From: Anaerolineaceae bacterium
GTDB lineage: Bacteria; Chloroflexota; Anaerolineae; Anaerolineales; Villigracilaceae
DNA length: 64,000 bases
Assembly (NCBI GenBank): GCA_009885945.1
Contig: VFJR01000004.1
Location: forward strand, 1-64,000
Reading direction: 5' to 3'
Shown: in pieces, positions 22,144 through 25,253 of the stretch
How the letters are laid out: every line of letters starts with the position of its first letter
Numbering within the stretch: the stretch's first letter is position 1
Notes under the pieces: generated by a model
Databases searched by the model: none
Told to the model about the DNA's origin: nothing
What the model saw: the letters and a program-made list of their open reading frames with translations, nothing else
Translations under genes and position numbers: made by a program

Positions 22144-23757
22144 CTAATCAAAAAAATCTGATGAGCAAGAAAAATCGTTTCCAGCAGGCGATGATACTAT
22201 GATGGGCCAGTCAGATGAATCAATTTTATATTGATCCAAATCTTTTTTTAGGCTGACGAGTTCTTTATCGGCGTAGAAACGCGAAAGGTGGAAAGATTGC
22301 CATTCGAGCGGGCGATCCTCTTGGCGGGTATAGCGCAGACAAGCCAAAGATGCGCCTAACTTCTCTCGGACAGAATCAGGCAAAGACTGAGTCTGATACG
22401 CGGCGGAGATGGCGGGAATCGCATCATCGGAGAGTTGCACAAAGTATTGAGAATCTAAATCGGCACGATTATAAAAATCATCTACTTGTTCTTGCTGGCC
22501 GCGCAGTTCACGAGCAATATTTTGATCTACGATAAATTGATCCACATTTAATAAAGTAAGAGAAACAGCAAATCCAAACGAAGCAACCAGCATCGCGAAT
22601 CCAAACGTACGCTCTTTTCTTGTGATCTCTAATGCAATCACTGCTATTAAAAGTAAGCCGATCCAAATGAGGAAGACGTGAGTATAGGTGCGCAGACGCG
22701 AGAAGCCGTAAACCGCTTCATACAAGCCGAGACGTTGAAACGCCGAAACAAGCATGACCAACACGAGGGCAACCAAGGCAACCCCCAAGCCAGAATATAT
22801 TTTTCTTTGCGATTCTGTTTCGCGGCGTGTGACGGCGCTTAAGCTAAGCAACATAAGCAGGGAGAAAAATGCGACTGCTACCAATTCTCCAAAGCCGCGC
22901 CGCGCATATTCTGAATAGGTGAAGCCCTCAATGCGAATGTTTGTGTGACCGCCAAAGAAGTATTGAAATTGAACGATCACGAACATGGCAAAAAGAAATA
23001 CAACGCTGCTTAAAACAATATATGATTCGATAAAGCCGAGAAATGCTGGGATAAGTGGTTTTTCTTCGCCGATCATTTTTTCGTCTTTAGATTGAGTTGC
23101 AGAATGCAGGAAAGTCCCCGCCAAGGCATAAGCAACCCCAAGAATATAAATAAGACGGAAAATATATTCTGGCAGGTTTTCTAATTTAAATAATTCAATA
23201 AAATTCGCTAATTTTTGATCAAAGACCACATCTGCTGAGGCGAGCAGAGATGCGAAGATGGCAACAATGGGCAAGGCAATGATCACACCGCGCAAGACGG
23301 GACCAATATTGATTCTCGATTTTTTCTCGCCGCTCTCGGTTTGAGTATTGCGAACTTCTACACCATAAGTGATGGGACGTGCGATCATACTGCCGATTAA
23401 ATTTATAAAATTAACAATGTAATTCAAAATGTTATATTGAATCCACTTGCCGCCGAGGTATGTCACTGCTAAGACACCTAAGGTAAACAAGGTGAATACA
23501 ACTGAAAGAAATGTAGTCATAGGCTCTGCGCGCACAAAGGAACTAACAGCGAAGAAAACAAAAAGCGGAAGCAATATCAAGCTGGCGGGCGCAGGCTTTA
23601 GTCCCTCGCCAAGTAAAAGATATAAACCGGCAATCAGGCAGAAGGTTGAAAAAATAGCGAAGTTGATACCAGGGGCTTGCTTCCAAAAGAGAAAGTCTAA
23701 TAGCCAGCCGAGGAAAATGGCGGTTATCCAAAGTTTATTTGCATTTGTGGTTTTCAT
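22144..23757 (-). CDS. DUF4173/DUF4153-type multi-pass membrane protein
   Basis: A 537-residue protein with about a dozen hydrophobic segments and a soluble C-terminal region of about 130 residues rich in charged residues (RELRGQQEQVDDFYNRADLDSQY, ending with a Cys-containing tail). The internal motif around FTYSEYARRGFGELVAVA is typical of the DUF4173 family (PF13777). Function is not known. AAGGAG precedes the ATG. It is a single gene between the bidirectional terminator and a 413-base intergenic region. Confidence 0.75.
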   Translation of the reverse strand: MKTTNANKLWITAIFLGWLLDFLFWKQAPGINFAIFSTFCLIAGLYLLLGEGLKPAPASLILLPLFVFFAVSSFVRAEPMTTFLSVVFTLFTLGVLAVTYLGGKWIQYNILNYIVNFINLIGSMIARPITYGVEVRNTQTESGEKKSRINIGPVLRGVIIALPIVAIFASLLASADVVFDQKLANFIELFKLENLPEYIFRLIYILGVAYALAGTFLHSATQSKDEKMIGEEKPLIPAFLGFIESYIVLSSVVFLFAMFVIVQFQYFFGGHTNIRIEGFTYSEYARRGFGELVAVAFFSLLMLLSLSAVTRRETESQRKIYSGLGVALVALVLVMLVSAFQRLGLYEAVYGFSRLRTYTHVFLIWIGLLLIAVIALEITRKERTFGFAMLVASFGFAVSLTLLNVDQFIVDQNIARELRGQQEQVDDFYNRADLDSQYFVQLSDDAIPAISAAYQTQSLPDSVREKLGASLACLRYTRQEDRPLEWQSFHLSRFYADKELVSLKKDLDQYKIDSSDWPIIVSSPAGNDFSCSSDFFD

Positions 23758-23882: not shown

Positions 23883-23910
23883 TTGACATTCAATTTGAGG
23901 TGTGTAATAC
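23883..23910 (+). promoter_or_regulatory. Candidate promoter of the micro-ORF unit
   Basis: A perfect TTGACA (23883-23888), a 16-base spacer and TAATAC (23905-23910) as a -10-like element. It lies about 55 bases ahead of the strong ribosome site at 23959. Confidence 0.5.
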
Positions 23911-23970
23911 TACACTTATTATTCGGGGGGCAAGCCAACAATTTTGCCATCCTATCGAAAGGAGGAGGTG

Positions 23971-24030
23971 ATGTCTATTATGAAAAGTAGTAAACACCCC
24001 AGCGCTGTGGCATCCCTCCTCAAGATCTAA
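23971..24030 (+). CDS. Candidate 19-residue peptide with very strong ribosome-binding site
   Basis: ATG at 23971 gives MSIMKSSKHPSAVASLLKI then TAA; a second in-frame ATG at 23980 would give a 16-residue form better spaced from the ribosome site. The preceding GAAAGGAGGAGGTGATG is almost a complete complement of a 16S rRNA 3' end, much stronger than any other site in the window. The second half of the ORF and its stop codon lie in a long hairpin (24002-24045). I do not recognise the peptide. It may be a leader or a small secreted or regulatory peptide, or the ORF may be incidental to a structured RNA. Confidence 0.45.
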   Translation: MSIMKSSKHPSAVASLLKI

Positions 24031-24079
24031 AGGACGCCACAGCGCACCACCAACGCCATCCGCAAGGGTGGCGTTGTGG
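24002..24079 (+). other. Two consecutive RNA hairpins downstream of the micro-ORF
   Basis: Hairpin 1: GCGCTGTGGC (24002-24011) pairs with GCCACAGCGC (24036-24045) and extends inward by TCC/GGA after one mismatch; it encloses the ORF stop. Hairpin 2: CAACGCCA (24051-24058) pairs with TGGCGTTG (24069-24076), with further outer pairing CCA/TGG. Together with the third hairpin at 24096 they form a compact structured transcript. Confidence 0.6.
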
Positions 24080-24095
24080 ATTCTGCCCCACCCTT

Positions 24096-24133
24096 CCTCT
24101 TCCCAAATCCTGCGGATTTGGGAAGAGGATTTT
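24096..24133 (+). terminator. Terminator of the micro-ORF unit
   Basis: CCTCTTCCCAAATCC (24096-24110) pairs perfectly with GGATTTGGGAAGAGG (24114-24128) around a 3-base loop, followed by ATTTTG. The T-tract is on the plus-strand side, so it ends the small plus-strand transcript rather than the convergent pfkA gene. Confidence 0.7.
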
Positions 24134-24170
24134 GTACGCTTGCAAACATCGTGATGTTTAGATTTGAATT

Positions 24171-25253
24171 TTATTCATCGCCAAACGAGATGCCCATGCC
24201 GCGGGCGGTGAGTACAGCCTCATCCTTGGGGTTAACACGTTTAAGTGTAGAAGTCGCTTCTACCAGGGAAATATCCGTAATGACGCCAGCTTGCAAGGCT
24301 ACCATGCGATCAAAGCCGCCGCGCGCCGCCAAGCGAACTGCTGCTGCGCCGTAACGAGTGGCAAGAAAACGGTCAAAGGCGGTGGGCGTACCGCCGCGTT
24401 GTAAATGACCGAGCACAGTCACGCGCGATTCGAAGCCGTGTTGTTCAATATACTCACCGATTTTTTGCCCGATCCCACCAAGACGCGGCACATACACTTC
24501 ATCGCCTTTGCGCGAAAAAACCTGCCCGCCATCTTGTGATTTTGCGCCCTCTGAAACAGCCAAGATGCTAAAGTTATAACCTTTCGCTACACGTTCGCGC
24601 ACTTTGGCAAGCACACTCTCAAACTTGAACGGAATCTCTGGAATCAGTATCACATCTGTTCCGCCCGCGATACCTGCATGCAATGTGATAAAGCCCGCAT
24701 CACGTCCCATTAATTCCAAAATCATGGCGCGATGATGAGACTCGGCGGTGGTATGCAAACGATCAATCGCCTCAGATGCGATATTGAGCGCGGTATCAAA
24801 CCCAAAGGTAGCTTCTGTGCCGCCAATGTCGTTATCAATTGTTTTTGGCACGCCAATAATGGGTACACCTTTTTGAGCAAGTTCATGCGCGATCTTTAGC
24901 GTGCCATCCCCGCCCAAGACTAGCAAGGCATCTAGTTTTTGTTTTTCAATCCCTTTGACAATTTCATCTGAAACATCAATGGTGATCTCTTTGCCATCCC
25001 GTATCACTTTACGCGCGTAAGGGTTTCCGCGATTCGCCGCGCCCAAGATGGTGCCGCCGCGCGGCAAAATTCCGCGCACTGACTCTATGCCCAACGGAAT
25101 GATTCCATCTTCTGTTAAAAAGCCATCGTATCCGTCTTTGATGCCGAACACTTTGCAGTCGTAGACGAAAAGTGCCGTCTTCACTACCGCGCGGATAACT
25201 GCGTTTAAGCCCGGGGCGTCACCGCCACCAGTTAGGATTCCGATTCGTTTCAT
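24171..25253 (-). CDS. pfkA: 6-phosphofructokinase
   Basis: A 360-residue enzyme of the PfkA family, slightly longer than the E. coli form. It has TGGGDAPGLNAVIR (residues 8-21), GGDGTL (114-119), catalytic PKTIDND (136-142), LMGRDAGF and GHLQRGGTPTAFDR. Gly117 at the position that separates ATP from pyrophosphate users suggests ATP use, while Lys137 (Gly in E. coli) is the residue usually seen in PPi-dependent members, so the phosphoryl donor should be tested. It starts two bases after the PLP-enzyme stop and is co-transcribed with it. Confidence 0.93.
   Translation of the reverse strand: MKRIGILTGGGDAPGLNAVIRAVVKTALFVYDCKVFGIKDGYDGFLTEDGIIPLGIESVRGILPRGGTILGAANRGNPYARKVIRDGKEITIDVSDEIVKGIEKQKLDALLVLGGDGTLKIAHELAQKGVPIIGVPKTIDNDIGGTEATFGFDTALNIASEAIDRLHTTAESHHRAMILELMGRDAGFITLHAGIAGGTDVILIPEIPFKFESVLAKVRERVAKGYNFSILAVSEGAKSQDGGQVFSRKGDEVYVPRLGGIGQKIGEYIEQHGFESRVTVLGHLQRGGTPTAFDRFLATRYGAAAVRLAARGGFDRMVALQAGVITDISLVEATSTLKRVNPKDEAVLTARGMGISFGDE

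Follow-up and report, generated by a model that had tools for sequence, protein, structure and literature searches.

A small genetic unit lying between two genes of an Anaerolineaceae genome proved to be a real, free-standing, single-copy mini-gene that occurs across much of Chloroflexota. Our leading, if tentative, explanation is that it constitutes a free-standing RNA gene (about 200 nt, with its own promoter and terminator) that would act as a self-contained translation switch. The comparative sequence analysis described below demonstrates the pairing, the ORF geometry and the autonomy of the unit, and from these constraints we infer that it is transcribed and translated.

Architecture of the unit

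The window, meaning the whole 64,000-nt stretch of DNA that was analysed, lies on contig C162 of a 3.43-Mb genome. The unit stands isolated at positions 23883 to 24133, between two minus-strand genes, and its parts and neighbours are as follows.

22144 to 23757, minus strand: divergent membrane-protein gene, named by eye from its translation.
23883 to 23911, plus strand: promoter with -35 TTGACA, a 17-nt spacer and extended -10 TG..AATACT, matching 10 of 12 consensus positions.
23946 to 23951, plus strand: 5' element GCYATC (here GCCATC); its G, C, A and T are the same in all 143 of the Anaerolineae members.
23957 to 23973, plus strand: extended Shine-Dalgarno (SD) sequence GAAAGGAGGAGGTGATG, which doubles as the 5' strand of the SD:anti-SD helix; GGAGGTG is invariant in 143 of 143 members.
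23971 to 24030, plus strand: mini-ORF MSIMKSSKHPSAVASLLKI, 19 codons, ATG at 23971 and stop codon TAA at 24028 to 24030, open in 143 of 144 members.
23986 to 23991, plus strand: tandem AGT AGT codons, an instance of a class-wide in-frame NGT bias.
24002 to 24045, plus strand: stem P1, 10 bp, pairing GCGCTGTGGC (24002 to 24011) with GCCACAGCGC (24036 to 24045), with covariation.
24011 to 24021, plus strand: anti-SD CATCCCTCCTC, complement of GAGGAGG-T-GATG (23962 to 23973), inside the ORF.
24028 to 24030, plus strand: stop codon of the mini-ORF, 5 nt before the P1 3' arm.
24051 to 24076, plus strand: terminator hairpin directly after P1; a terminator-like hairpin is present in 140 of 143 members versus 29 of 143 shuffled sequences.
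24095 to 24129, either strand: second, bidirectional-looking terminator shared with the convergent pfkA, a 16-bp stem followed by TTTTGT.
24171 to 25253, minus strand: convergent phosphofructokinase gene (pfkA), named by eye from its translation.

Every part named in the original prediction, a compact unit of promoter, ribosome site, 19-codon ORF, hairpins and terminator, is thus present. The scanned region held four promoter sites, compared to 1.1 expected, and a single weak antisense promoter-like site at 23977 to 23949. Promoters matching at least 9 of the 12 consensus positions were found in 120 of 143 members (6 in shuffled sequences), and those matching at least 10 in 114 of 143 (3 in shuffled sequences). 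The predicted fold energy of positions 23917 to 24136 was -106 kcal/mol, while shuffled sequences reached -63 ± 4 (z, -9.9), and a scan for tRNA and tmRNA gave no match. The ribosome site is also, as had been claimed, stronger than those of its neighbours, with a 10-nt anti-SD complement, whereas the window's 31 long ORFs have 3 to 7 nt.

The second terminator is a near-perfect 16-bp inverted repeat between the unit and pfkA, with a T tail on the plus strand. It lies outside the conserved core, as DNA matches in relatives mostly stop before this repeat, and it is probably a shared bidirectional terminator particular to the genome of the window.

Distribution and family status

A DNA search recovered the unit in 39 of 61 relatives, representing 31 of 47 genera. 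A covariance model (R1), built from 30 of the relatives found in this way, had hits in 221 of 396 Anaerolineae genomes, almost invariably one per genome. When a second model (R2) and a pattern search carried the analysis to further families and classes of Chloroflexota, three genomes (L225 to L227) were found to have the complete architecture. The unit or a close analogue also occurs in other Chloroflexota, including Herpetosiphon aurantiacus 114-95T, a sequenced type strain whose chromosome has been published (PMC3368417) and carries it at positions 5,443,380 to 5,443,474. Weak matches such as L148 may be non-homologous, and a stricter pattern search at the phylum level added no further members. 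An exact-pattern scan of 84,980 GTDB species returned 39 matches, all from Chloroflexota as judged by record title, although the pattern spelled out the Anaerolineae-type anti-SD and absence from other phyla is therefore only suggestive. The 144 members counted below were collected with sequence-built models and are hence biased toward look-alikes, and the shuffles with which they are compared leave shared ancestry in.

Searches against Rfam 15 at gathering and E-value thresholds gave no match in the window; the locus and 20 homologues returned only sub-threshold chance matches. In the open-access literature on Anaerolineae, Chloroflexota and Herpetosiphon, we found no description of such an element. 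As the unit belongs to no Rfam family and we found no paper describing it, we classify it as a new family of RNAs and as a new variant among those that switch an SD.

Pairing of the Shine-Dalgarno sequence and stem P1

The SD is near-perfect across members (GGAGGTGATG), and the extended form GAAAGGAGGAGGTGATG has its sole exact copy in the window at 23957 to 23973. In Anaerolineae members the GCYATC element sits 14 to 18 nt upstream of GGAGG; no covariation supported its pairing with any other segment.

The pairing of the SD with the anti-SD inside the ORF is conserved at both short and long evolutionary range. In an alignment of 30 close members (A1), 99.4% of the cells of this helix were paired, and in 99 divergent members 10.3 of 11 positions were paired. 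The pairing total among these divergent members was 1023, compared to 1008.7 ± 1.8 for 500 shuffles, the highest of which reached 1014. Position 8 of the SD covaries with its partner, being A-T in 72, G-C in 19 and G-T in 8 of the 99, and sliding the partners by 1 to 3 columns abolished the pairing signal. The SD:anti-SD helix is absent from the structure of the covariance model.

Stem P1 likewise covaries, with one pair read as CG in 87 members, TA in 47, GC in 3, AT in 2 and TG in 3, and another as GC in 74 and AT in 67. Taken together with the SD helix, P1 forms a predicted H-type pseudoknot of 20 pairs in two crossing helices, in which 99.7% of cells were paired across 30 sequences. In Anaerolineae, P1 and SD:anti-SD are thus predicted to be compatible, giving an H-type pseudoknot in which the SD is closed and hardly any loop separates the helices. 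The arrangement differs in other Chloroflexota. In L146, L151, L225 and L227, the P1 3' arm duplicates the SD-start sequence (GGTGATGC; GTGATGCCC in L227), and therefore the anti-SD must choose between the SD (closed) and P1 (open); the two helices are mutually exclusive in L151, L225 and L227. Predicted energies were -21 to -22 kcal/mol for SD:anti-SD, -19.6 kcal/mol for the SD with the 16S tail and -27 to -28 kcal/mol for the P1 hairpin. Since the predicted strength of P1 exceeds that of SD:anti-SD, the default state may be open and not closed where the two exclude each other.

Two further hairpins were seen in this region. A mini-hairpin (P2) between the anti-SD and the stop codon, with at least 5 bp in 47 of 99 members compared to about 23 in shuffles, was considered and not accepted as an established element, its excess over shuffles being only moderate. 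In three loci (L011:1564-1692, L014:211-338 and L016:1452-1581), an extra hairpin such as GCAGGAAGTGCACCTGCACCTCC, with another CACCTCC, separates the stop codon from the P1 3' arm.

The mini-ORF and its codons

An ORF of 15 to 20 codons, counted from the second start, is present in 143 of 144 distinct members and begins 7 to 11 nt after GGAGG. The exception is L074, in which the ORF stops early, in P1. That translation starts at the first ATG (inside GGTGATG) was considered and rejected: many members have this codon in frame, whereas L031, L064, L061 and L077 do not. On comparison of these sequences, translation more probably begins at the in-frame ATG at 23980, which would give the peptide MKSSKHPSAVASLLKI.

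The frame of the ORF relative to P1 is common to 141 members, and in the GTDB scan the match lengths were 2 modulo 3 in 33 of 39, that is, of one frame class. The position of the stop codon is similarly constrained, ending 1 to 5 nt before the P1 3' arm in 95 of 143 members, most commonly at a distance of 2; in five members of one family it lies inside the arm. The original prediction had placed the stop within a long stem. It does lie within the P1 hairpin, in the loop 5 nt ahead of the 3' arm, but not in the paired part. More broadly, the ORF, the stems and the SD are all retained in relatives with compensatory changes, and the prediction withstood this comparison.

Two members, L190 and L195, have a frame that is shifted relative to P1, yet they keep the start, the length, the stop position and the in-frame NGT codons. 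Like the members from other classes, they would encode unrelated peptides with the same geometry. The frame in which the anti-SD is read also differs by lineage, being GGC-ATC-AC in other classes versus GCA-TCA-C in Anaerolineae.

A marked codon bias accompanies this geometry. Before P1, NGT codons, in the RNA AGU, CGU, UGU and GGU, make up 34.5% of codons in frame 0, compared to 0.9% and 0.3% in the other two frames, and to 4.9% of codons in the genes of the window, which are the only codon-usage reference used here. Serine is encoded by AGT in 220 of 265 cases and by TCN in 20. Ser, Arg, Cys and Gly interchange at the NGT sites, 83 of these codons specifying a residue other than Ser. Given that these four residues swap at NGT and that TCN is avoided for Ser, it is the codon that is constrained rather than the residue. 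Such an in-frame constraint on NGU strongly implies that the mini-ORF is translated. Across lineages, the alignments show conservation of the ORF geometry, the stop position and the in-frame NGU codons, and no conservation of the peptide sequence. The peptides, such as MDHSSKNSAVASPPFVS, are by inspection polar or hydrophilic, 15 to 20 aa long and devoid of a hydrophobic span.

A translation-sensing RNA as the proposed explanation

The original prediction had offered a peptide gene, a translation-sensing RNA and a dual-function RNA as possible readings. This interpretation is supported in part. Our results favor the second reading over a peptide gene, because a segment within the ORF covaries with the SD and because the position of the stop codon next to the P1 3' arm is fixed. 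Under the proposed mechanism, the 30S subunit and the internal anti-SD would be rivals for the SD, with near-equal predicted energies (about -20 versus -21 kcal/mol). A translating ribosome would unwind the anti-SD and P1, end beside the P1 3' arm and hold both open, while an RNA without translation would close. The fold of the RNA would in this way report its own translation, and with it free 30S subunits, the rate of initiation or elongation, or possibly the speed of ribosomes over the NGU codons.

Switching in vivo and the output of the RNA are steps that we infer from the same constraints. The output, the least certain part of this proposal, would most likely be the RNA itself in one of two states, acting through its stability or a trans-bound partner, rather than the peptide. 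To our knowledge, no such regulator is known in Chloroflexota. The wider claim is one we hold less firmly: the family may be a stand-alone, phylum-wide and previously undescribed class of translation-sensing RNAs in which the act of translation, and not the peptide, is the product, with the fold serving as a gauge of free ribosomes or of elongation speed over NGU codons. If translation is the signal, the unit would be a natural ribosome gauge, and with translation itself as the output it would be of a new kind; if translation is not the signal, the unit represents a family of small mRNAs or small RNAs (sRNAs) that is absent from Rfam. The presence of the unit in the type strain H. aurantiacus 114-95T makes this question directly testable.

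Alternative explanations

The unit could instead be a trans-acting dual-function sRNA, whose P1 loop would display the anti-SD as a mimic of the 16S 3' end and bind the SDs of other mRNAs, with translation of the mini-ORF turning it on or off. The free-standing architecture of the transcript fits this explanation, as does the absence of a downstream gene to be regulated in cis, and the loop of the P1 hairpin exposes GCATCACCTC, a sequence similar to the 16S 3' tail. The anti-SD, however, covaries with the unit's own SD, as cis pairing predicts. The exact partner, the 10-mer GGAGGTGATG, has only 5 copies in the 3.43-Mb genome, which is about chance level and thus favors cis pairing over broad trans action. 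In addition, Hfq was not detected in 21 relatives, in a search in which control genomes behaved as expected, though sRNAs can work without Hfq. We consider a trans-acting function unlikely, while still giving it appreciable weight.

Slightly less probable, and in our judgment doubtful, is a micropeptide gene, whose product would be the 15- to 20-aa peptide itself (MDxSS...AVASP in most Anaerolineae), with the SD and anti-SD autoregulating its synthesis. The motifs MDxSS and SAVASP/SAVASL do recur in Anaerolineae peptides, and conserved residues of this kind could mean that the peptide has a function; the ORF is open in nearly all members and is preceded by the strongest SD of the region. The codons for SAVASP, however, fall in P1 and the anti-SD, where RNA pairing accounts for their conservation, and the interchange of residues at NGT codons, the avoidance of TCN for Ser and the unrelated peptides of L190, L195 and other classes all argue against this explanation. 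In its strict sense, the peptide-gene reading of the original prediction is weakened, since neither the peptide sequence nor the frame in which the anti-SD is read is constant from lineage to lineage.

A leader or attenuator of a downstream gene is very improbable, even though an SD, an anti-SD and an anti-anti-SD combined with a short ORF make up the anatomy of a ribosome-mediated attenuator. Conservation of the downstream neighbors does not reach beyond the family, and many of them are convergent, as pfkA is in the family of the window; synteny thus largely refutes a leader for pfkA or another neighbor, and the terminator closes the unit in nearly every member. Also in favor of a leader is an AIR-synthase/HypE-like gene (named by eye, about 337 aa), which follows the unit on the same strand in ten loci of divergent lineages (L062, L063, L066, L075, L078, L079, L091, L094, L095 and L097).

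That terminator hairpins and an accidental ORF merely came together by chance might be suggested by the position in a gap before the convergent pfkA, where terminators are expected. Class-wide conservation, covariation and frame retention refute this explanation; conservation in 39 of 61 relatives by DNA search and 221 of 396 Anaerolineae genomes by covariance model is the decisive evidence against chance, and we regard its probability as negligible.

Comparison with known systems

The unit fits none of the usual boxes of leader peptide, riboswitch, toxin or sRNA, as it combines a single copy, a sequence-independent ORF and a covarying SD switch with the lack of a downstream gene. In ribosome-mediated attenuator leaders such as those of ermC and cat, a short ORF with an SD is accompanied by alternative stems, and a ribosome on the ORF decides which stem forms. 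The unit shares with them the short ORF and mutually exclusive stems that involve the SD. Unlike these leaders, it has no downstream gene, has its own terminator, sequesters the SD of the mini-ORF itself and lacks a conserved stalling peptide.

SAM-II and preQ1-II riboswitches sequester the SD in an H-type pseudoknot, and the predicted H-type pseudoknot of the unit similarly includes the SD. In the unit, however, the first helix has the SD as its 5' strand, and all other parts of the pseudoknot are located downstream, in the ORF and past its end. None of the riboswitch families in Rfam 15 matched the unit.

Dual-function sRNAs such as SgrS/SgrT and RNAIII are free-standing small transcripts with a promoter, a terminator and a short ORF. 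The unit resembles them in its independent promoter (120 of 143) and terminator (140 of 143), both recognized by sequence only. It differs in that its core pairing is intramolecular, its ORF fills the structured core and Hfq was not detected in the 21 relatives. That sRNAs can code for peptides has been described (PMC5521070).

The type I toxin mRNAs timP and tisB are small and monocistronic, and their translation is set by mutually exclusive folds, one of which is a pseudoknot (PMC11228461). The unit is similar to these in being a small mRNA with a sequestered SD and competing folds (PMC11228461). In contrast, its anti-SD is inside the ORF, its peptides are hydrophilic and unconserved instead of hydrophobic and membrane active, and it is near-universal and single copy in its class. 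As a sign of an antisense RNA, the promoter scan showed only the one weak site at 23977 to 23949.

The downstream-peptide motif, or yfr6, of cyanobacteria pairs a conserved RNA with a short conserved ORF in a short transcript (PMC2864571). There, the structured 5' untranslated region lies upstream of the ORF (PMC2864571), whereas the structure of the unit overlaps it.
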